Shown here: piece by piece, positions 42,991 to 64,000 of the stretch
Numbering within the stretch: position 1 is the stretch's first letter
How the letters are laid out: each line of letters starts with the position of its first letter
Origin: Nymphaea colorata
Taxonomy: Eukaryota > Streptophyta > Magnoliopsida > Nymphaeales > Nymphaeaceae
Direction: 5' to 3'
DNA: 64,000 nucleotides
Assembly (NCBI RefSeq): GCF_008831285.2
Contig: NC_045138.2
Location: forward strand, 22,537,934 to 22,601,933
Notes under the pieces: model-generated
What the model was told of the DNA's origin: nothing
The model's input: only the letters and a program-made list of their open reading frames with translations
Databases searched by the model: none
Made by a program: the position numbers and the translations under genes

Positions 42991-43558
42991 TAAAGAAAAT
43001 AGAAAGCAAGAGAAGAAAAGGGAGACGACAGAAAGAAGACAAAGTTACGTGGTTTGGTTCGAGAGAACCTACATCCACTATCGAAAAATGCTCTCTTGCT
43101 GTTTTTCTTTATTAGTCTCACGTATGGCATTACAATATATACAGCAGTTTTGGAACTGCAAGAATCATCAAGCAATCGTTGGAGGATTTTGTTTAATTGC
43201 TCCTCCTACCGTTTCAGGTTGACAATCATGCACTAGATTTTGATGATCATGGATAGTGCGTGATTTGTGATTGAGCTTTCCATTGTTGTAATTGTTGGAT
43301 ACGTTGGATTTGGGCATATCATGATTGCAGCCATTTGAATGCAAGATAAACTTTCCGTCGTTGTTTGATTTGTCATTAATCTTCTTGGAGGAACTGGAAT
43401 TAAGCTTGCCATAACTGCTGTTGGCAATATGTCCATCATTAGCCAGATTTCCATCCAGCGTTCCATCGTAATTGTCATCAGCCAGATTGGAGGAATTTGA
43501 ATGTGGAATGAGCTGGTTGTAACTACCGTTGGCCAGCTTGGGATGTTCCTCTATAACA
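42991..43558 (-). repeat. 3' LTR of copia-3 (568 bp)
   Basis: On the minus strand it starts TGTTATAGAGGAACATCC and ends ...CTATTTTCTTTA. It matches the 5' LTR along its length apart from about 84 bp (near 43,440-43,525) that the 5' LTR lacks. Confidence 0.92.
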
Positions 43559-48244: not shown

Positions 48245-48728
48245 TAAAGAAAATAGAAAGCAAGAGAAGAAAAGGGAGATGAGAGAAAGAAGACAAAGTT
48301 AGGTGGTTCGGTTCGAGAGAACCTACATCCACGATCGAAAAATGCTCTCTTGCTGTTTTTTCTTTATTAGTCTCACGTATGGCATTACAATATATACAAC
48401 AGTTTTGTAACTGCAAGAATCATCAAGCAATCGTTGGAGGATTTTGTTTAAATTTCTCCTCCTACCGTTTCAGGTTGACAATCATGCACTAGATTTTGAT
48501 GATCATGGATAGTGCGTGATTTGTGATTGAGCTTTCCATTGCTGTAATTGTTGGATACATTGGATTTGGGCGTATCATGATTGCAGCCATTTGAATGCAA
48601 GATAAACTTTCCATCATTGTTTGATTTGTCATTAATCTTCTTGGAGGGACTGAAATTAAGCTTGCCATAACTGCAGTTGGCAATCTGGCTAATGACCGTT
48701 GGCCAGCTTGGGACGTTCCTCTTTAACA
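48245..48728 (-). repeat. 5' LTR of copia-3 (484 bp)
   Basis: On the minus strand it starts TGTTAAAGAGGAACGTCC and ends ...CTATTTTCTTTA, immediately before the PBS. It lacks about 84 bp present in the 3' LTR between GGCAATCTGGC and TAATGACCGTT, so its U3 promoter part may be damaged. Confidence 0.92.
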
Positions 48729-50939: not shown

Positions 50940-51360
50940 CAGAACAAACAGAACAGCCTCTCTCCCTCCCGCCCCCGACCCCAACCCCATTGTCTTTCTC
51001 TCCTTCTCCTTCGTCTTTGCTGCTTTTCTCCTCTGACTCCGCTCCCATCTCCACTGCCTTTCTCCTCTGTCTCTACTGTCAAGCTGCCCTAGCCCTTCCT
51101 GTTCCTCTCCTTCTCCTCCGTCCCCCAAGCTGCCCTAGCCCTTTTTGTTTCTCTCCTTCTCCTCCGCCTCTACGGGAGGGCGACCGTTGGACGCTTTTCT
51201 GGACACTTTTGTTTCCTCTGCTGAAAAATATTGTATGCTTCTTCTTCTTCTTCCTCGGCTTCATCTTCTCCTCTGTCTCTTTAGTTGGAAGAAGGAAGAA
51301 GGAGAGAGATGTGGACTTGTTTTGTTTCCGAGTGATTGAAGATTTCAGCAGTGGCATGAA
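50940..51360 (+). other. 5'-UTR-like exon of the Harbinger transcript
   Basis: Pyrimidine-rich leader with an internal duplication (AAGCTGCCCTAGCCCTT at about 51,080 and 51,127). It ends ...GGCATGAA followed by GTGAGTAAT, a strong splice donor at 51,361. The start is inferred about 30 bp after the TATA box. The long open frame over it has no domain and is probably incidental. Confidence 0.35.
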
Positions 51361-54325
51361 GTGAGTAATCCTCTCTCTTTTTCTCCCTCTTTCTCTTGAA
51401 ACTGTAGTTGGTACTTGTTACTATGCTCGAGCTTCGTCTCTGTTGTTTTGAGCCAGATTATGCATGCACCCCTTCCAGATTATGGTTCTTAATCAAGAGT
51501 TCCACTTTCTTAATGGATTTCTAGCATGCTATTTTTTTCTGAAGATATTGATTTTTTGATCTCCTTGATTTCATTCATCAACCATGAATTTGATTGATCC
51601 TTAATCTGCATGCGCTAACGATGACTTGAAATACATAAACTAAAACTCCTCAAGGTTTTGTAGTTTTGCTTCAATGTTATAACAATGAGGCAAGCACCGT
51701 GCCCACTAACATCTTGGTTTTGTACCATATTCTTTTCATAGTATTCCTTGAGTTAATGCAATTTTTCTCCATTGTGTTTTAAAGATGTGTTGCTTTGATT
51801 TGGCAGCAACGAGGAGGCTTGCCATGGGATCTTTCACGAAAATGAAAATCTTTCCTCAATTGCTGTCATGGCAAGACAACACTTGTTTCACTAAGATCCA
51901 AATTTTCTTAAGGTTGCAACTGGTTAATGTTTTTGAGAATTCTTGTTACTACCAACAAAAGGAAACAAAATAACCATAGGATGAACAATGGAAAAGGAAC
52001 AATGCATCGGCTTCTCATATTGCACAGCCTGCATTAGATCCATCATTTGGAGTTACTATTGCATTTGTTTGAAGCTTCATATTAGTTCCTTCAGGAGTTT
52101 GAGTTTTTAATGAAAATTTTCAGTTGACTTTGTCCATCATGATGCAGTAGAATGTAGGGCTTTTTGGATCTCCCTTGTTGTCAGCACTCACATTTTTGTC
52201 ATTCTTTTTATGGTTTTTTTCTCCTATGTCATCAGGTATGTGGACATACATGCAACTTTTTCCATAGATGCCTAGAAATTGCTTATATAGAAACAGATGC
52301 TAACGTTCAAAAGCCTTTTTTCCCTTCTTTCTTCCCTTGTGTGTGATCGTGTTCAATGTGGATCTTTCCTTTTTTTTTCAAATATATAAATGTAGCTTCA
52401 CATTTTCAAGAGCATATACACTCATGAATTTGTGTATGCGTATAGGTAATGCACTATGCAAACATGTAAATTTGAAGCTTAAAAGCAAAGAAATACCTGG
52501 CAGTTCTCTATCTAATTACCATGGAATTCAGTGTATGCAAGTCCAGGGTGCTGACAGCAACGCTGCACCAGCAGGCTTTTGGCATTTCAATTAGGTTAGG
52601 GTCCTAGAGATTCTTCCGACCTGCATATTACATGTCAAACTAATAAGGCCTCATAATGTTTTTATCAGCAGGATTGTGGAAGAGCAATTTACTTCCCTAT
52701 GATGAGAAACATGCAAAAGATGCTTCCACTTAAATCATGAATTTAGTCATCGTACTGAGTGTGAATGAGCATAGATGCAATCAACATTTTGTCAACATGG
52801 TCAAGTTTGGTGCATTTTACTTGGCACCTGCATAGCTCATAGAACTCTGAGGATCAAATGCACCCTCCTTTGAGTGCGGAGTGCTCTCACCGTGCAAATG
52901 GGATGTTGTTGAAAATTTGAACATAGAAAAATAATACTTTTTTCAATCGTCTCCTTAGTAGCAGAAAATCAGCCATTGGTATCAGCAGAAAACCAATTCC
53001 ACAAGCCTAATTATGTCTGAAATATTAATGAGCTATAGCCAGTGTGTCGTCAGAAAATTATGTGATACTAACTATGTTTAGCAGGTTTAACTGAACCAAG
53101 GGAATACCATAACCATTTTTATCAATCCAACAGAAAGTGATGACGGTCATCCTAGTTCGACATATACTATTTATGTTGCTTACCTATATTGGTTAAGCTA
53201 AAGCATTTTTCTGAATCCAGCATAAAACGATTGGGGACATGTAATTTGGATAGTTATTGTGTTGCTATAGAGTGAAATATTAAACTGAATGAACTAGGTG
53301 CAGCTTGGAGGCAGTGGACTTGGTCTAAGCTGATCCTGATCTCATTCATCTTGCCTTGTTTATTAGGACCCTGATTGACCTACATCCTAATCATAATAGG
53401 TGTCTATGTTGAAAATTTAGTGCTTGCAGCTGAATAGGCATCAAGAGCACCATGAACCTATGAGACAAAGTTCTTGAACATATCAAAATCACCAAAAGAC
53501 CCTTGCTCATCTTTGGCTTTTCTAAATCTTCTCTCTAAGTTTACTCTTAGTTTTTTTATCTACTCTTGTTGGTCTCTAAGCTTCAAACTTGGAAGTATTG
53601 CTCGAGCACAATTTCCATTTTTTTTCTTTTTCCTATTTATGTAATTGCATAAGAAGGAGAGGGAGAGGGAGATTGAGAGCTTAAAGAAGTTGTTCACTAA
53701 TGTCCGTGATTTTCCTGTTTCTGGGTTGTTCAGTCATTGTCAGTGTCGTTGCTCTCATTCCTAGCGAACAGCTAAACGTTCGCCATATTATTGCAGGTGT
53801 TGCTATTCTTTTTGGCATGTGAATATTTGATAGACCCCTTAATTCATGCCTAGATCAAATTCTTGCCTTAGAGGTGGGGTTGTTAAAGATCTGGCTTCAA
53901 TGGTCCAGTGGCTAGGGGCAATGTATATAAAATTTCTATTGCTCATTTGGGGCTCAAATTTATTGCCTTACTGGTTCTGCTTCCTGGCAGATAGTGGCAT
54001 CTTAATATTCGGGAAAACTGAGTGACAATAATGTCAAACTGAATTGAATATGCCCATGTGAATCTGGTGACAATGCCATTAACATTGAGGCATGGTCGGT
54101 ATCTATGTTTTGATCAGCTTGAGCACTATTTTTTCTCTTTTTTTTCACTTCTTTTTTTAGCCTCTTCAACTTCCAAAATACTGCACTCTTGGAACTGCTC
54201 TGAATAAAGGACTAACGGCTAGTTAAACCCATGTCAGGTCAGTGCCTTACCTGACTGGCTGTCTAACACAAAATTGCAGCTCAAGCAATCATCTCTATTA
54301 TCATCTGACTTCTCAATTTGAGTAC
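51361..54325. other. Unexplained interior of the Harbinger element
   Basis: About 3 kb without recognisable transposon genes. Acceptor-like TTTGGCAG occurs near 51,812, followed by a short open stretch to 51,970 without a known domain. A SINE-like sequence is at 53,893-53,990. This may be intron of the element's own transcript or captured host sequence. Confidence 0.35.
53893..53990 (+). repeat. Candidate tRNA-derived SINE inside the Harbinger element
   Basis: TGGTCCAGTGG fits the Pol III A box. GGGCTCAAATTTATTG, about 45 bases later, resembles a B box. The 3' limit and target duplication were not identified. Confidence 0.4.
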
Positions 54326-54545
54326 TTACATGGCAATGTTACCATGTTCACCATCCCCAGCACCATGCTCTAGTCTACTTTGATCTTGAGAATTAGAAGC
54401 ATTGTTAGATGCATTATCAATTGACATGTCAGGTCCAGCGCCAAGATCCTCCTTCATCATCCTTTTCTCTTTTTTCTTCTTTGATTTCATACTATTTTCA
54501 AGACCTTTTTCATATGAATCTCTTTTCCTGCTTGTGTTCACAGAG
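54326..54545 (-). pseudogene. Exon-like fragment, unknown protein, minus strand
   Basis: The minus strand reads SRKRDSYEKGLENSMKSKKK, then a Lys-rich stretch and an acidic/Asn-rich tail (SIDNASNNASNSQDQSRLEH). It is followed directly by GTAAGTACTC, a strong splice donor, and preceded by AG acceptors (CACAAG/GCAG). Composition looks like a disordered nuclear protein region. I do not recognise the gene. It could be a captured host exon or part of a Harbinger accessory gene in reverse orientation. Confidence 0.3.
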
Positions 54546-54598
54546 CATGGAGACAAAACCCAATTAAGTGACAACACATGATTTTGAACCACACTTAG

Positions 54599-54669
54599 GA
54601 GTGGCGTAGATATTGTTATAGTGTTAAAAATCCACTGCATTGGGTGATAATATGAGTGGCGTAGATATT
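54599..54669. repeat. 16-bp direct repeat flanking a 39-bp spacer
   Basis: GAGTGGCGTAGATATT occurs at 54,599-54,614 and again at 54,654-54,669. It lies exactly between the minus-strand exon-like piece and the ORF1-like remnant, so it may mark a junction. Confidence 0.7.
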
Positions 54670-54990
54670 AGGGTACTAGATGATGCATAAATAAATGTAG
54701 ATGAACAAGATGAGAATGATTTTCAGTTACCTACTTCACCAATGGATAGCAATGCTCATATTCAGGGAAAAACCTCTAACAGTATGAGGGGAAACAAAAG
54801 AGTGAAAACCTCCACATCCATGAATGATGATACTTTTGAAACCGTTGGTGAGTACACATAACAACTTGTGGAAACTCAATCTACAACTATTTTGCAGAAG
54901 AGTGGAGCAATTTTAAGAGATATGCATGCAAAAGGGGAAATAGATAATTATTTATTTTTCAGATCAGTCGACTGACTTTTTAATTTTGAT
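54670..54990 (+). pseudogene. Possible Harbinger ORF1 (Myb-like) C-terminal remnant
   Basis: The plus-strand frame reads DEQDENDFQLPTSPMDSNAH, KRVKTSTSMNDDTFETVGEY, then after a stop QLVETQSTTILQKSGAILRD. The Ser/Asp-rich linker with a KRxK signal and a helical C-terminus resembles the second protein (Myb/SANT-like) encoded by plant PIF/Harbinger elements upstream of the transposase. The DNA-binding N-terminal part was not found. Assignment rests on position and composition. Confidence 0.35.
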
Positions 54991-55314
54991 AAAGCAAACG
55001 ATTTTCCCATGATGCCACGTGAGTTGCAGGTTACTTGGTTGTGCCTGCTAATTGGCTAAACGACAGGTAATGTTTGTAACTGAGTATTGTTATGGAGGTT
55101 TGTAATTATGCATTACTTTTGTTGTGTGTAACTGTTTGTAATTTGTGATATATAATAATTGTTTGTAATAGTGTATTTTTGATGTTTTTAATTCTTTATA
55201 ATTTATGATATATAGTAAATTGATAGGAATTCATGCTTGCAATTATTTTTTATTTCACAATTCTTTGCAATTAAATAGTGTTTATTCTCATGAATTTGTG
55301 TATTTATTATCAGG

Positions 55315-55783
55315 AAGGATGACATATCCACAGTTATCTTTATTCTTATTATGTGGTTGGTGATGGAACGCTTGAAAGCACAAGGTAGACCTACTAGAAA
55401 TTTAATACATACTAATCGATTAGCAGGGGCCCAATTTGTGCATGTTTGTATGCATGGACACCCAAGAAATTGTTTAGATCTATTGAGGGTGGATCAACGA
55501 ACATATGCATTATTATGCAATTTGTTAAAAAGTAGGGAGTTATTGTGTGATGCAAGAAAAATAACAATTGAAGAACAAGTAGCAATGTTTCTCGTTACTT
55601 TGGGACATGATCAGCGAAATCGACGAACCCAATATAATTTTCAACACTCAAGATAAACAATATGTAGGTACTTCAACTTAGTTTTGAAAGCAATTCTCTG
55701 TGTTGCATATAAATATGTGGGATGTAGAGATGATACTACACCAACTCGATAGAGGAGATCCACGTTTCTTTTCATACTTTAAG
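55315..55783 (+). pseudogene. PIF/Harbinger transposase, exon 1
   Basis: Follows an acceptor-like TTATTATCAG. The frame from 55,351 gives MWLVMERLKAQGRPTRNLIH, HPRNCLDLLRVDQRTYALLC, ITIEEQVAMFLVTLGHDQRN and QYNFQHSR, the N-terminal helical region of plant Harbinger (HARBI1-like) transposases. At 55,654 a TAA replaces the expected Glu codon, then TICRYFNLVLKAIL continues. A frameshift precedes the last piece, GDPRFFSYFK, which ends exactly at an AAG|GTAAAC splice donor (55,784). The exon junction at YFK before D-C-(I/L)-GA(I/M)DG is where I expect it for the family. Non-functional. Confidence 0.8.
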
Positions 55784-57453
55784 GTAAACAACTATAATTC
55801 ACAATAGATATAGTCAACCTTTTTATTTGTGGTAAAACTTTTAGTGATGGAAAAAAAGGCCAGTAGCACAGGACCTACTAGGTGGGCCCGTCGATTATTG
55901 ATATGATGGAAATTGTTGATGTATCGTCAAAGCACTCGCAAAGCGAAGCGTGAGGGAATGAGTGAAGCGAGTTCCTCAGCTCTGGGAGAGAATTCCATAT
56001 TGTTTGGGATAGAGTCAAGGGCTCTGAGAAATCCTGAGGCTCAACACCCCCCCCCCCAAAATCAGTCAAGCCCCGTTAGCCTGGGCGGAGATGGGGATAA
56101 GGGACCTTCCAATCTTTGAGCCTATGTTCCAACCAAACCCGCGAAAGAATGCCCACCATTTCAGGAGATTGATGGAATCTTGAAAGAAACCATCAAAAAA
56201 CCTTGAAAGAAAAGTCAGGAGGCTCGCGTAGTTTGTTACGCCAGCTCCAAAAGGATAAGTTGCATTGGAATCGAGAAAGTAGGCACTAATGCCATTCAAT
56301 TCAAAGTTGCGACTCAGTCGAAAGTCCAGAGTCTCAGAACGGCCAATCAAGACTTTGAGGTTTCCCCAGCAAGCCATCCAAGCGAGTTGGCCAGACGTCT
56401 GTGATGAAAAAAAAAGGAACTTGACGGCCGGAAGATAGATACAAAAACGTCTCCATGTCGTACGCCTGGAACAACATCGTACAATTTCGGCGATCCAAAA
56501 GGAGTGCGACCCGAACGAGCGACAGCGAAGCCTTCCATTTAGTAGCTTCCCTCACCCTACTATCATAGCTTAAGCTTCCCCAGTTTGGGGGATTAATTGA
56601 TTGGATACCCCTTTGATTTACTGAAACTTGAGGAGGAATCAGTAGCATGTTCTCAAACGGCAAAGCCACAAAGCCAAAGCTTTGCGAGTGTGCTTATGAT
56701 TTGTGGTATGGTCAACACTAATGACATATAATTGCCATTGGGTATGTCAAGGGAATCCACGAAAAAGAGCAATTTCAACTTGATAGATGAGTGCTTTGTG
56801 CAAAGAAATCCCTATGGTTCAGTGCCTTCCAGAACAAAGGGAGTTCCCTTGCTCTTGCTGCGTATGATTAGCTAGCCTTGCAGCGGCAAAAGGATTCGAT
56901 GTCCCCCCATGCTACTGTTCCCTGCGTCCTCCTCATTCCCGGGAAGAGGAGCAGGGCCAGGTGAGTGGGGATGCAGCTCCGCGAATGGCCCATTTGGATG
57001 CCATTAGTACTTTTGAAGGAAAAGAAATATGGAAAGGTCAGGACTAATTGCAATTTCATGTTATTCAGACTAACCATACCAAAAAGATGGAATCTAGAAA
57101 GAAACCATTAAAAAATCTTGAAAGAAAGGTATTTGATGGTTATGGAAAGACCCGACATTGGATCAAAACATGCGTTCGAGGATCTTTCCGTGGTGTGCTC
57201 CGTTTACTATTCTTTCGTACCCTCTTCTTTTTACCACGCGATAGGATAGCAAAGCGTGAGCGGGAGTGCGGCAACTTCAACACCATAAGCCAGTGAAGGG
57301 GTCAACTAGAAAGCACTGACTTAAGAAGAAATACGAGTGACATTGGGGTCTTTCTATTACGATGTCAGATAGATGGTCACCTCTTAATCGACAGCTACAA
57401 CAACTGGAAGAAAGATACCCGGAGCTGTACTAACACATATTACATATCAATAG
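55784..57453 (+). other. Transposase intron carrying the mitochondrial insert
   Basis: Donor GTAAAC at 55,784 and acceptor ATATCAATAG ending at 57,453. The flanking exons join in phase 0 (...FSYFK, then DCLGAMDG). At about 1.67 kb it is much longer than the short intron I would expect, because most of it is mitochondrial DNA. Confidence 0.7.
55870..57430. other. Nuclear mitochondrial DNA (NUMT) with ccmFC pieces
   Basis: The base composition is more GC-balanced than the surroundings. At 56,225-56,275 the plus strand reads SLLRQLQKDKLHWNRES, matching the C-terminal end of plant mitochondrial CcmFC (cytochrome c maturation). At 57,175-57,275 it reads FRGVLRLLFFRTLFFLPRDR followed by IAKRERE, matching an N-terminal/middle part of the same protein. 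In the mitochondrial gene the second lies upstream of the first, so order is reversed here: the insert is rearranged or built from several pieces. The remaining sequence (56,300-57,100) looks mitochondrial but I could not name it. A C10-type homopolymer sits at about 56,048. Confidence 0.75.
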
Positions 57454-58313
57454 GATTGTTTGGGAGCAATGGATGGTACACACATTCCAGTATGTGTCAA
57501 AAGAGATGGCCAAAATCGTTAGCAAAATAGAAAATGTTCTTATTTCAAAATGTTTTAGCAATGGTGGGATTCAATATGTAATTTCACTACATACTAGCAG
57601 GTTGGAAAGGAAGTGCAACTGATGCAAGAGTATTATACAGTGCACTAGAAGTTAATCCTCATTCTTTAGAAATTCCACATGGTAAGAAAATAAACATCAA
57701 TGGTTTAAATTCACATTCATCAATTTAATTGTTTGACTGACAAAACACATATTGTTGATTATAAAATAAGTAAATATTATCTTACCGATGTTGAATAACC
57801 AAATATTGTCAGATTGTTAACTCCATGTATAAGATGTCGTTATCATCTATCAGAGTTTAATGTGTTCGAATCTAGGCAAAATGAGACAAAATAAGAATTA
57901 TACAACTATAGACACTCATCTTTGTACACTACTATGAAGAGAGTGTTTGGTTTGCTTAAGGCAAGGTTTTCGATTTTGAAGAATCATGTGTCATATTTGA
58001 TATCCACTCAAGTTAAAATTGTACAAACAACATGTGTTCTTCATAATTTTATAACCAACCACAATTCAAATGCTGAACAATTTTCTTCTGATGATATAAA
58101 TGATAGTGAAGTAAGTGAAATTATAAATGATGATGAAAATACAATTATACAAACAACATGTGTTCTTCATAATTTTATAACCAACCACAATTCAAATGCT
58201 GAACAATTTCTTTCTGATGATATAAATGATAGTGAAGTAAGTGAAATTATAAATGATGATGAAAATACTAAACAAACACAAATATGTGGTAGCAACAATG
58301 AACTTCGTAAATA
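57454..58313 (+). pseudogene. PIF/Harbinger transposase, exon 2 (DDE domain), inactive
   Basis: Begins DCLGAMDGTHIPVCVKRDGQ: the first catalytic Asp is at 57,472-57,474. The second Asp is in YLTDVE near 57,787, where most relatives have DAGY. Near 57,930 the segment reads TTMKRVFGLLKARFSILKNH, so Lys (57,937-57,939) stands where the third catalytic residue, Glu in ER.FG, is expected. Stops occur after RDGQNR and elsewhere. The last 130 codons (57,922-58,311) are open, ending in a duplicated acidic tail and the stop at 58,312. PIF/Harbinger transposases cut DNA with a DDE triad; this one cannot. Confidence 0.85.
58023..58274 (+). repeat. In-frame tandem duplication, 126 bp (42 codons)
   Basis: Copies at 58,023-58,148 and 58,149-58,274 differ by about one or two bases. 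Each encodes QTTCVLHNFITNHNSNAEQF followed by SDDINDSEVSEIINDDENT. The end of the conserved transposase fold (CVLHNF) and the acidic tail are therefore repeated in frame. Confidence 0.92.
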
Positions 58314-58319
58314 AATTAC

Positions 58320-59094
58320 TTCAACACTATGGAATGATACTCATTGCTACCATTCTCATTATATTATATGTCATTGTTTTAATTATAGCTGATTATTTTA
58401 ATATTTTATAGTGATAATCTAATTATTTGTTTCTTTTTAATTTCTGAAATGTAGGAACCAGACGGTGATGCCTCTTCTAAAGTATTACATGGTTTTAATG
58501 AGAAGAGTAGTGTGCAGGACAGAAGACTAGTTATCTAGCGAGTTGTCATAGTTATTTTTGTTTCATGGCTTACAACAGTTGAATATTTTAGACAATTTGT
58601 ATTTTGTAGTTTTACTTAATACATGTGACTATATAGATGTTTAAACATTTTACAATAATGATGTTTTTGTTATAATATTATGGATCGTGTTATCGAATGT
58701 ATTGATTTGCATATAACATATTGTTATGAATTTTGTACTTATTTTGATATAACATGTTCAAAAAATAAGATATCATATAGCAGACAGAACAAATATAATA
58801 GCCAAAATTGATTAGAGAAGATACAAACAACGGATAAAATAGACGGTTCGAACATAACATAAACAAATACCAGACAGAACAGACAGAAGTAACCATGGAA
58901 GACACAAACATCGGATATGACAAAAACAAACGTTAGACAGAACAAACACACACAAAACAAACACCGAACAAGAAGAACGTAGTGTTCTGTTTGTAAAATC
59001 ATCAATCAGTGGACAAGAAACATTATTGTCCATGATGACAGGACAATAGTGTAAGGGACATGACGTCCTATCTATCATGTCCCAATGAACAACA
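58320..59094. other. Right non-coding terminus of the Harbinger element
   Basis: No coding sequence. The last 300 bp are rich in ACAGA(A/C)(C/A)A-type words (TTCTGTCTG on the other strand), which recur in the relic at 40.3 kb and probably form transposase-binding subterminal repeats. The minus-strand open frames at 58,690-59,162 run over this low-complexity sequence. Confidence 0.5.
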
Positions 59095-59107
59095 ATCAAA
59101 CAACCTC
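59095..59107 (-). repeat. Right terminal inverted repeat of Harbinger element
   Basis: ATCAAACAACCTC, the inverted partner of 50,790-50,802, followed by TTA at 59,108-59,110. Confidence 0.8.
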
Positions 59108-59979
59108 TTAAGTAATTAACCTTAACCCATACAAATAGTCTTGATGAGTGGTCTAGTGTCATGTATGAGCATGTATGATCAATAGCCTACACTAGCCCGT
59201 ACAAAATGTTTTATATATACATTGGTACTCATTAATTTTTTTCACTTACTTATATACTGAGTGCCTCTTAAAACTGAAATTACAATATTAGTTTCCATAA
59301 CCGAAGTATTCTGGCTCTACTAATGGGCGTTCATAATTCATAGTTGGCAGAGGGTTTAATACCTTATTCTTCTACTTCATGTTTTACATCATTGTGACAC
59401 ACTATAAGCTTGAAAGCTCTCGGATACTTCTCAAACAACGCCTAAATGTATTTATACCATTCACTTGGTCGAGCCGATAAAAATATTCACTTCTGATATA
59501 TTGTTCGCCATACCAGATATTATAAGTTCTGAAAAATTTCATTGTGAAAATCAAGAATAGATAAGGGGAAAGAGAAGTAATGCAACACTCCATCCCTTAC
59601 ATTAACTTCCCTTTTAATCCAATGTCAACATCTCCCGATTCCATAGGATAGCAGTATTTTGGAGTCGTTTGGCTGTTAAAACAGTATATTAATGTTCGAA
59701 AGATTAAAACAGATTTAGCGAATACTAAAACTAATGTTTTATAAATTTCCCTAATTTTTTGAGTGGATTCATACAACACTCGCATACTGTTCTACCTTTC
59801 AAAGGACCTCAACCTCTAAAGGATCGTTTGAATGAACTGGAACAATGCGGAACAAATGGTCCAAATAAACGGATTCGGGTTTACTCCTAGACAAAGCACG
59901 GGACCGAAAAGTCTAACCGACTAGGTTAGAGGCACCGCGGCGGCAACCACAGAAGAGGCGGTCGAGAGGGCACCCGCAC
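59108..59979 (+). promoter_or_regulatory. Upstream (promoter) region of BRR2
   Basis: Between the Harbinger end and the putative BRR2 leader. No clear canonical TATA box; a TATATATGC word lies near 59,998. Housekeeping genes in plants are often TATA-less, so the transcription start is not assigned. Two short minus-strand open frames (59,402-59,593 and 59,597-59,785) have no domain support. Confidence 0.35.
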
Positions 59980-60152
59980 GAAGGCGTCCACCACAGATAT
60001 ATATGCAGGAAGCTGCTCCATCTCAACTCCTGGCTCGTTTCGTCTCCTCCTGTAAGACAGGGGAACGAGGAAAGGAGGGAGAGATATTGGCAGGAAGAGG
60101 GAAAGCAAGTTGGGAAGTGTTGTGCATAGTCATACCTTCTTTTCTCTCCTGG

Positions 60153-60459
60153 TACGTCTCTCTCTCTCTCTCTTTCTCTCCCTCTCTCTCACTCACTCAC
60201 ACACACACACACATACACGCACAGAGACACGGACGTTCATCATAATCTGTAAAGTCTTTACACTGGGTTATCATTCTATTCCTTGATTTGACGCCTTGTC
60301 CTTGTTTTTTACCGGCATTCTTCTTCTTCTTCATGTTCTTCTTTTAATTCCCTGTTGATTGAATGTTCAAGGGATGTAGTTGAGTTCCATTTTGCTCGTT
60401 TCTCTCATTTCTTTCTCTCTGTCTGATTTATTTTCTTTTCTTCGCTTTTCATTTGCCAG
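60153..60459 (+). other. Probable intron in the BRR2 5' UTR
   Basis: TCCTG|GTACGTCT forms a good donor and TTCATTTGCCAG|GAAG a good acceptor with a pyrimidine-rich tract before it. The intron starts with long CT and CA microsatellites (60,155-60,216). Leader introns are common in plant housekeeping genes. Not proven without transcript data. Confidence 0.6.
60155..60216. repeat. CT then CA microsatellite at the 5' splice site of the leader intron
   Basis: Interrupted (CT)n followed by (CA)n begins two bases after the donor GT. Confidence 0.9.
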
Positions 60460-60600
60460 GAAGTAGCTGGTCGATCGAGGTATACGGGTTTTCAAAGTAT
60501 TTCTGTGGACGAACTTAGGGTTTTCCTGTAGGGGCTCTTGGGGAGGCTAAATTAGGGTCTTCGTTGAATTTCGAGGTTCGTTACTCTGTTTGGGTTTCAA

Positions 60601-63567
60601 ATGGCGCATTTGGGAGGCGGTGCTGAAGCACACGCGCGGTTCAAGCAGTATGAGTACCGGGCAAACTCGAGTTTGGTCCTGACTACTGACACTCGTCCTC
60701 GGGACACCCATGAACCCACTGGGGAACCGGAGTCGCTCTGGGGGAAGATTGATCCGAAGAAATTTGGCGACAGAGTGTTCCATGGCAAGCCCCCAGAGCT
60801 AGAAGAGAAGTTGAAGAAGTCGAAGAGAAAGAAGGAGAGGGAACCTGCTTCTGTGCCACTGAAGCGGGACAGCAAGCGAAGGAAGCTTCAGGAAGAAAGC
60901 GTGCTCTCGCTGGCTGATGAGGGGGTTTATCGGCCGAAGACAAAAGAGACCAGAGCTGCATACGAGGCTCTGCTCGGAATGATACAGCAGCAGTTTGGCG
61001 GGCAGCCCCAGGACATACTCAGCGGGGCTGCGGATGAGGTCCTGAAGGTGCTGAAGAACGATAAGACCAAAAACCCCGACAAGAAGAAGGAGATCGAGAG
61101 TCTGCTGAACCCAGTCTCACAGCAGTTCTTCGATCAGTTAGTATCTATTGGCAAACTCATCACTGATTATGAGGATGGAGCTGATGCAGGTAATACTGGG
61201 GGCACTGGAGAGCCCATTGATGACGATATTGGTGTCGCTGTAGAATTTGAAGATGAAGAGGAGGACGAGGAGAGTGACCTGGATCAGGTTCAGGAGCCCT
61301 CGGAGGGGGAAGAGGACGATGATGTGCAGGATGCTAACGGTATGGGAGGTATGCAGATGAGCCATGGCATCGATGATGATGAACTGGTGGAGGCGGATGA
61401 GGGGTTGAATGTTCAGGATATTGATGCCTACTGGCTTCAAAGGAAGATATCTCAGGCTTATGAAAATATCGACCCTCAACAGAGCCAAAAGCTTGCAGAA
61501 GAAGTGCTGAAAATATTGGCTGAAGGAGGGAAAGATAAAGATGTGGGCAACAATGTGGACAGAGATGTGGAGAACAAACTGGTGATGCTTCTTAATTATG
61601 AACATTTTAAGCTTATTAAGCTGATCACGCATAATAGGTTAAAAATTGTATGGTGTACCCGCCTGGCAAGAGCTGAGGATCAAGAGCAAAAGAAGCTTAT
61701 TGAGGAGGAAATGCTGAACGGTGGGCCAGGTTTAGCTGCAATCCTTGAGCAGCTTCATGCCACAAGAGCCACTGCAAAGGAGCGGCAAAAGAATTTGGAA
61801 AAGAGTATCAGAGAGGAGGCTAGACGGCTGAAAGATGAGACCGGGGCAGGGGATAGATATCGTAGGTCCGATCGAGAAGGTGTTGGTGCAGATAACAGCT
61901 GGTTGAAAGGACAGCGCCAGCTGTTAGATTTGGAGAGCATTGCATTTCACCAAGGTGGTCTGTTAATGTCTAAAAAGAAATGTGAGCTTCCTCCTGGCAC
62001 TTTTAGAACTGCTCGGAAGGGATATGAGGAGGTTCATGTGCCAGCATTGAAAGCAAAACCTTTGACAGCAGGGGAAGAACTTGTTAAAATCTCATCCATG
62101 CCAGATTGGGCACAGCCAGCATTTGCTGAAATGAAGCAGCTCAACAGGGTTCAGAGCAAGGTTTATGAGACAGCTCTTTTTACACCAAAGAATATCCTTC
62201 TATGTGCACCTACTGGTGCTGGTAAGACGAATGTTGCTATGCTGACAATTCTCCAACAGATTGCTCTGTATAGGAATCAAGACGGATCTGTTAATACAAG
62301 CAAATTCAAAATTGTATACGTAGCTCCCATGAAAGCCTTGGTTGCTGAAGTTGTTGGAAACTTATCCAAGCGTTTGCAGTCCTATGGCATCTCTGTCCAA
62401 GAACTTACTGGGGATCAGACACTCTCCCGCAAACAGATAGAGGACACTCAGATAATAGTAACAACACCTGAGAAATGGGATATTATTACAAGGAAATCTG
62501 GTGACCGCACCTATACTCAGCTTGTGAAGCTATTGATTATTGATGAGATTCATCTTCTTCATGATAACAGAGGGCCTGTTCTTGAAAGTATCGTTGCTAG
62601 AACGGTAAGACAAGTAGAGACCACAAAAGAACTTATCAGACTGGTTGGTCTATCTGCTACACTTCCCAACTACGAGGATGTTGCATTATTTTTGCGTGTA
62701 GACCCTTCAGAAGGTCTGTTTCATTTTGACAATAGTTACAGGCCCTGCCCACTTGCTCAACAGTACATTGGAATAACTGTCAAAAAGCCCTTGCAGAGAT
62801 TTCAGCTGATGAATGAAATATGTTACGAGAAGGTTATGGGTGTTGCGGGAAAGCAGCAGGTGTTAATCTTTGTCCACTCGAGGAAAGAAACTGCAAAAAC
62901 TGCTCGTGCTATAAGGGACACTGCTCTTGCAAACGATGCCCTTGGACGGTTCATGAATGAAGATAGTGCTAGTCAAGAGATTCTTCGGAGTGAATCTGAA
63001 AAGGTCAAGAACAACGATCTTAAAGATCTTCTTCCTTATGGTTTTGCAATTCATCACGCAGGGATGGCTAGAGTAGACAGAACACTTGTTGAGGAACTTT
63101 TTGCTGATGGACATGTAAGGGTTTTGGTGTCAACAGCAACTCTTGCGTGGGGTGTTAACTTGCCGGCACATACTGTCATCATAAAAGGAACCCAAGTATA
63201 TAATCCAGAAAAAGGTGCCTGGACTGAACTAAGTCCACTGGATGTTATGCAGATGCTTGGTCGTGCAGGAAGACCTCAATATGACTCGTATGGGGAAGGG
63301 ATAATACTGACAGGCCATAGTGAGCTGCAGTATTATCTTTCCCTTATGAATGAGCAGCTTCCGATAGAGAGTCAGTTTGTTTCTAAACTAGCAGATCAGT
63401 TGAATGCGGAAATTGTTCTTGGAACTGTTCAGAATGCAAGAGAGGCATGCACATGGATTGGGTACACGTACCTGTACATTCGTATGCTTCGAAATCCTGT
63501 ACTGTATGGAATGGCTGCTGATGTATTGGAGAATGACCAAACATTGGAAGAACGGAGAGCAGACCTG
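60601..63567 (+). CDS. BRR2: BRR2 U5 snRNP helicase, first coding exon (partial gene)
   Basis: BRR2 (plant DExH12-type; SNRNP200 in humans) is the Ski2-like RNA helicase of the U5 snRNP that unwinds U4/U6 to activate the spliceosome in the nucleus. The start ATG (TTTCAAATGGCG) opens MAHLGGGAEAHARFKQYEYR, the conserved N-terminus of plant BRR2, and no better upstream start exists. The exon encodes 989 residues of an expected roughly 2,170. It contains an N-terminal region with an acidic stretch (about 190-260), then the first helicase cassette: Walker A PTGAGKT (537-543), TPEKWD (622-627), DEIH (648-651), SATLPN (685-690), STATLAWGVN (near 843) and QMLGRAGRPQ (884-893). It ends at RRADL followed by a GTAAGC donor at 63,568, phase 0. 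No frameshift or stop interrupts it. The second, regulatory cassette and both Sec63 domains lie beyond the window. Confidence 0.97.
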
Positions 63568-64000
63568 GTAAGCCAGTAATTTCATTATGATTATTTGAAC
63601 CTTCTCCTTTGCTCTTAGTATACATCTGTGTCACAGGGGTGCTCCTAAACGGCTGTTGCACCCATATCCCCGTATTGACACTGATGCTGGTGTTTTTTCC
63701 GACACAGCACCTCCAGTATGGTCAGCTGAACTGGGCCAAAACTAACCATTTTACATGCGCACCTGACTAAACTAGCTCTAATACAAAGGATTTATATTGA
63801 CTAAAATGTAAATATAGATAACTACAGCTACTAAACAGTTAATTAACTATATAACAAATGATACGCACACACATATTTATATGCTTGCTGCATTTGAACA
63901 TAAATTTTTTTGAAAATTACTGCATCCAAATATGCAACCACACCAGCACCTGCACCCCTCATCCATATGATTTAGGTATAGAGACATACATGCACACATG
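63568..64000 (+). other. BRR2 intron (continues beyond the window)
   Basis: Starts GTAAGCCAGTAA; the frame stops four codons later, so translation must continue in a downstream exon. The next BRR2 residues expected after RRADL are not encoded before position 64,000. The sequence is AT-rich with no other gene seen. Confidence 0.8.

Follow-up and report, generated by a model that had tools for sequence, protein, structure and literature searches.

A shuffled mosaic of mostly mitochondrial scraps in the intron of a decayed PIF/Harbinger-type transposase of Nymphaea colorata

The intron of a PIF/Harbinger-type transposase copy on chromosome C1 of Nymphaea colorata harbours 1,583 bp of mostly mitochondrial-like DNA, composed of short pieces that lie on both strands in shuffled order instead of forming one block of the mitochondrial genome. 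We put the probability that this insert is a complex (rearranged) NUMT, finely fragmented and installed by end joining at one break in the intron, at about three in four. In this scenario the intron of this transposase copy would have suffered a double-strand break, filled in one event instead of several with about 20 mitochondrial scraps of ~50-100 bp, which end joining had linked up beforehand or linked up as the repair proceeded; two intron bases would have been lost and no target site duplicated. Complex NUMTs are a known kind of event, and it is the fine grain of the pieces that is unusual and departs from the common picture. The window analysed here is a stretch of 64,000 nucleotides (C1:22537934-22601933) of the 44,002,061-bp C1, in an assembly of 407,766,735 bp in 783 contigs that also includes a mitochondrial contig, C782, of 617,195 bp.

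The host gene is recognisable from its 3' part. Three readings on its two sides were submitted to Pfam. The one at 57895-58314 matches DDE_Tnp_4 (PF13359, E 1.3e-9, 38.3 bits against a cut-off of 24.8, over its residues 3-51) and secondly Plant_tran (PF04827, E 3.8e-5), which marks the gene as PIF/Harbinger-type; the other two readings gave no transposase match. The intron runs in phase from a GT donor to an AG acceptor (borders TTTAAG/GTAAAC and CAATAG/GATTG), with readings that end in ...FSYFK before it and resume with DCLGAMDG after it. At least some Medicago elements have one or two transposase introns (PMC2213677), and in the relatives of the present copy the same intron measures ~89 bp (61 + 2 + 26), a short form present in all 12 copies read. 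The insert is followed directly by TACTAAC, which we take to be a branch-point-like motif, ~20 nt before the acceptor. The insertion left the donor, this motif and the acceptor intact, and judging from these motifs the transposase could in principle have been splice-competent at the time of insertion. The copy is now dead. Compared with 10 or more of the 12 relatives that were read, it lacks 2 bp in the first exon part and 1 bp in the second (positions in Table 1). No pair of terminal inverted repeats with a TTA/TAA target duplication was detected between 51000-55350 and 58320-61500 at 11/14 matches. The last part of the transposase reading contains a tandem duplication of 126 bp (58014-58265, 97% identity).

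The insertion point can be read to the base because the transposon family supplies its own empty sites. A search with the 5' flank (55294-55860) listed 47 matches, self included (40 of 88 candidates scored), and most of those that reach the site end at base 55844, a few stopping some bases short; the 3' flank (57425-58320) listed 48 matches (40 of 145 candidates scored), most strong ones beginning at base 57428. Both flanks could be paired in 28 copies, none of which holds the insert. Twenty-six of them have 2 bp at the site (22 outright and four once matches ending a few bases early are taken into account), one has 1 bp, and in the last the 5' match stops short. All 12 copies that were read and aligned run TTTTA(G/A), AA and TA(C/T)TAA in succession, with no insert. 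The insert is therefore 55845-57427 and entered this copy, with loss of the 2 bp AA and without target duplication. The 28 paired sister copies, together with a donor genome in the same assembly, make this a clean case. For plant complex inserts, PMC6215612 describes nuclear-side ends as omitted for want of close enough genomes; multicopy transposons used as built-in empty-site controls could make the ends of many plant NUMTs readable.

Table 1. Transposase copy, insert and constituent pieces (window coordinates; sources on the mitochondrial contig C782 unless another contig is named)
Feature	Coordinates	Strand	Source or remark
Transposase 5' part to exon end	55294-55783	+	2-bp deletion after 55749; TAA 55654-55656 in first-exon frame
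Transposase intron (GT...AG)	55784-57453	+	1,670 bp
Insert, mosaic NUMT	55845-57427	+	1,583 bp; matches listed include no second long copy
Piece	55905-55970	-	C782:264898-264963, 65/66
Piece	55966-56034	+	whole length just at nuclear C14:6717124-6717192, 96%, among matches listed
Piece	56036-56103	-	C782:337556-337620, 63/68; ~1 kb from nad-type reading
Piece	56103-56164	+	C782:335273-335335, 61/63; 1-bp overlap with preceding piece
Mitochondrial repeat piece	56161-56213	-	C782:51171-51133, also 51099, 67464; to 56200; rest via 57086-57130 copy
ccmFC exon 2, C-terminal part	56214-56280	+	C782:226034-226100, 64/67
Piece	56416-56505	+	C782:462180-462269, 85/90
Piece	56507-56610	+	C782:236698-236801, 100/104; at most 50 bp from group II intron domain (RF00029) on C782
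Piece	56604-56658	+	like C782:10939-10993, 46/55
Dispersed mitochondrial repeat family piece	56669-56742		best C782:608294-608361
54-bp piece (nuclear C7, C11), then 33 bp	56746-56821	+	33 bp like C782:177345-177313
Piece	56822-56916	+	nuclear C1:41979297, partly C2:24964943, 87%; absent from scored C782 matches
Mitochondrial repeat piece	56911-56997		C782:3300, 80608, 309055; 89%
Dispersed mitochondrial repeat family piece	57028-57092		match to C782 family
Piece	57132-57184	-	like C782:117904-117959; clear over last ~35 bp
ccmFC exon 1	57179-57264	+	C782:224242-224327, 81/86
Piece	57268-57337	+	C782:524215-524286, 69/72
Piece	57337-57427	+	C782:261625-261715, 85/91; no overlap with following intron sequence
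TACTAAC, presumed branch-point-like	57428-57434	+	first bases after insert
Transposase 3' part	57454-58314	+	DDE_Tnp_4 reading; 1-bp deletion after 57534; 126-bp tandem duplication

That C782 is mitochondrial is plain from its content. Seven of ten readings match Pfam families (COX1 with E 1.2e-150, cytochrome b, ATP6, a nad-type domain, S4, TatC and CcmF_C), ARAGORN places eight tRNAs in 5 of 20 ten-kb stretches, Rfam detects a group II intron in one source out of 16, and the GC content of those stretches of it that were analysed is 39-54%. The insert matches this contig and sits on C1, and is thus mitochondrial sequence on a nuclear chromosome, with a GC content of 46.1% against 25-37% in the adjoining 150-base tiles. 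In a single control search against 200 kb of C782 (less 10 kb), it returned 11 pieces covering 31.7% of its length, whereas none of 35 equal nuclear tiles of the window (bases 1 to ~55,400) gave any piece. The mitochondrial-like character of the insert is beyond doubt. Its divergence from C782 of 4.0% may speak against a misjoin in the assembly. The first-pass annotation had described an exact, in-phase transposase intron filled with mitochondrial-like DNA that includes segments of ccmFC, and was right in each of these respects; the shuffled, mosaic nature of the filling is an addition to that description.

By a hand-compiled tiling that includes repeat-type pieces, three pieces matched over their length at other nuclear loci only and a few pieces of just 26-35 bp, ~21 segments account for 1,371 of the 1,583 bases. 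The 212 bases that gave no match lie chiefly at the left end (55845-55904) and at 56313-56415. Nine pieces have one full-length place on C782; they measure 62-104 bp (mean 78) at 92.6-98.5% identity, gaps counted, and their alignments break off sharply at each end. The remaining seven of the 16 alignments are repeat-type or weaker. Fragments from separate organelle sites, the nine unique ones and the repeat-type ones, abut one another, as in a complex NUMT. At eight readable junctions, some of which involve repeat-type pieces and all of which were read from alignments by eye, neighbouring pieces overlap by 0, 1, 1, 3, 3 and 4 bp or are separated by gaps of 1 and 3 bp. Microhomology or blunt ends at these junctions, with a small deletion and no long target duplication at the insertion site, are the signatures of end joining. 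Three segments match over their length just at other nuclear loci among the matches listed. C782 carries a dispersed family of ~50-bp elements (L009-L028): with the stretch 56660-56760 of the insert alone, at least 25 places match in 200 kb, and more under laxer scoring. Within the insert a 45-bp sequence occurs twice (56171-56215 and 57086-57130, 91% identity), each copy upstream of a ccmFC scrap, and part of it is repeated on C782.

The two ccmFC scraps derive from different exons. One lies in the exon-1 reading that starts MVQLQNFFFF, the other at the C-terminus (...GGSRSLLRQLQKEKLHWNRES). The exon-2 reading of C782 matches Pfam CcmF_C (E 3.2e-8); the exon-1 reading has no Pfam match and is presumed to be ccmFC from its sequence and its place just upstream of exon 2. 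No mitochondrial match came from Pfam scans of the readings of the insert itself, or from the PDB when a piece of 23 residues was searched. Scans for ccmFC strings confirmed none in viral contigs (55 pattern matches in one scan) and found none in bacterial genome contigs. In coffee, ccmFC-378 is edited from UUC to UUU (PMC10598636). The editing site was considered as proof of transfer at the DNA level and set aside. Base 378 of the C782 reading, taken literally, is C, and the insert has T. A shift by one codon, which we assume from the Arabidopsis sequence, is needed to put ccmFC-378 on TTC, and there the insert keeps C; the evidence that this site offers for DNA-level transfer is weak.

A genome search with the insert listed 47 non-self matches (40 of 148 candidates scored), among which the strongest are on C782 and all are short. 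Judged by their coordinates, none of these 47 spans a junction with 15 bp on each flank, and the closest case reaches 7-8 bp beyond one. Fifteen other nuclear loci matched by pieces of the insert (L006, L050-L063) were compared with 227,768 bases of C782, a limited portion, so that missing matches at these loci mean little. Seven of the 15 are longer ordinary stretches (at least ~250 bp contiguous) that follow the present order of C782, with minimum lengths of 2.3 kb (L006), 546 bp (L062), 457 bp (L058), 408 bp (L053), 387 bp (L059), 360 bp (L057) and 259 bp (L061). L063 has a 242-bp match at 76% and L060 is a patch of mitochondrial repeat families, while within the 227,768 bases L050 and L055 have short matches alone and L051, L052, L054 and L056 none. 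L054 (C1:41979000-41979700) and L055 (C12:7115000-7115800) are AT-rich nuclear DNA with lone scraps of ~95 and 74 bp shared with the insert. A general claim that pieces shared with nuclear loci have fixed borders was dropped, given the seven longer ordinary NUMTs.

The nine unique pieces are clustered on C782: three pairs fall within 3.5 kb (P 0.010), five pieces within 42 kb (P 0.009) and seven within 115 kb (P 0.007), in a post hoc test whose distances were picked after seeing the data and which uses today's order of an often-rearranging type of genome. Such clustering is what the joint fragmentation of a small number of donor molecules should produce. With respect to age, the insert differs from C782 at 28 of 701 sites, and 16 of the 28 differences are G>A or C>T, the type of change by which NUMTs ordinarily decay. 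In a FastTree tree of 13 copies the terminal branch of this transposon copy is 0.079, with 39 of 1,137 sites private, and from the comparison of these values the insertion probably postdates the divergence of this copy from the closest relative sampled. The proposal that the transposon might serve as a vehicle for spreading organelle DNA in the nucleus gained no support, unlike the mitochondrial part of the first-pass annotation. With 40 of 148 candidates scored, the matches listed include no second long copy of the insert, the further Harbinger copies with the same insert that had been envisaged were found in none of the 28 pairs, and the 2-bp and 1-bp exon deletions, which may have arisen before or after the insertion, are private to this copy; the vehicle idea is therefore without support.

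Several other origins were weighed. The insert might have come in a single contiguous stretch from a mitochondrial intergenic region of earlier date, itself a patchwork by then and no longer present in this mitochondrial genome. C782 does hold short dispersed repeats, several pieces of the insert belong to such families, and the scored C782 matches leave three segments unaccounted for. Among 118 equal windows (1,583 bp) from 200 kb of C782 the median is one piece and the maximum nine, with four windows at eight or more and one with coverage equal to or above that of the insert, but none reaches 11, and the seven longer nuclear loci are ordinary stretches in present C782 order. The insert is more finely patched than present mitochondrial DNA by a margin that is not large, and this modest margin is the main reason for the weight left to a contiguous origin, which we hold to be unlikely. 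The patchy windows of C782 count against a complex NUMT joined at one break, as do the three segments matched over their length at other nuclear loci only and the 212 unmatched bases, the left end among them; the post hoc character of the clustering test weighs in the same direction.

A variant of the same explanation, tentative but the most credible of the alternatives and with odds that overlap those of the preferred reading, would replace ligated scraps by a polymerase jumping between mitochondrial templates in theta-type or replication-based repair. The short pieces, alike in size and lying on both strands, speak for such jumping, as do the small overlaps and the pairs of neighbouring source sites; three of the eight readable junctions overlap by only 0-1 bp and two have gaps, and the data do not separate the two routes. 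Stepwise growth of the mosaic, by insertions that hit this intron at different times, is very improbable, as none of the 28 paired copies (other transposon copies, not this locus) shows a partial state and Portugez et al. report no recurrent insertions in rice (PMC6215612). It had also been envisaged that the sequence is an ordinary part of the intron in this transposon family, which has practically no chance of being true: with 2 bp at the site in 26 of the 28 paired copies and the insert in none, it is refuted within this genome.

The filling of breaks with organelle DNA by end joining is established (PMC6215612, PMC2567098, PMC7037861, PMC12181080). Primate numt insertions often lose no bases or just 1-2 (PMC2567098), a pattern that the 2-bp loss observed here fits. 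Like the plant complex NUMTs and NUPTs described in PMC6215612 and PMC7037861, the insert joins organelle fragments of mixed strand by blunt or microhomology junctions, and joint entry is supposed for those as well; tobacco integrants are likewise mixtures of chloroplast segments according to PMC7037861, and three concomitant fragments are cited in PMC3989485. In contrast to the worked example of PMC6215612, with four fragments in 3,573 bp, the present insert packs ~21 pieces, the unique ones of 62-104 bp, into 1.58 kb. A comparable case is a 104-bp rearranged NUMT in the subtelomere of Arabidopsis chromosome 1, where mitochondrial scraps from different places are also joined, although it is about fifteen times shorter and its setting is subtelomeric (PMC7037861). 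Rice nuclear rpl6 resembles our case in bringing a mitochondrial sequence and a PIF/Harbinger element together close to an intron, but in rice the element supplied the 5' UTR of a transferred gene (PMC2631504), whereas here gene scraps lie inside a decayed transposase. The literature searched on NUMTs, mosaics and filler DNA yielded no survey of how large the pieces of individual complex NUMTs are. Stretches of the insert were found in none of the paper texts searched, one search matching just gene and topic words.

The even grain of 60-100 bp might, in place of random breakage, be the footprint of mitochondrial DNA that was digested to short pieces in a defined cell state and swept into one nuclear break, an idea that we regard as rather doubtful. 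Candidate states are the destruction of organelle DNA in pollen, or autophagy. Were it true, the insert would be a fossil of that digestion and the distribution of piece lengths its readable record.

The surroundings of the transposon are nuclear. Downstream, 60568-63579 is stop-free over 1,003 aa and matches Pfam BRR2_plug, Helicase_PWI, SNRNP200_wHTH and DEAD, and therefore a gene for a BRR2-type splicing helicase, likely a real host gene, lies nearby. Rfam gave no match and ARAGORN no tRNA in the window. Upstream of the transposase, a direct repeat of ~440 bp (42991-43431 and 48245-48687) shows 95.7% identity between its two copies.
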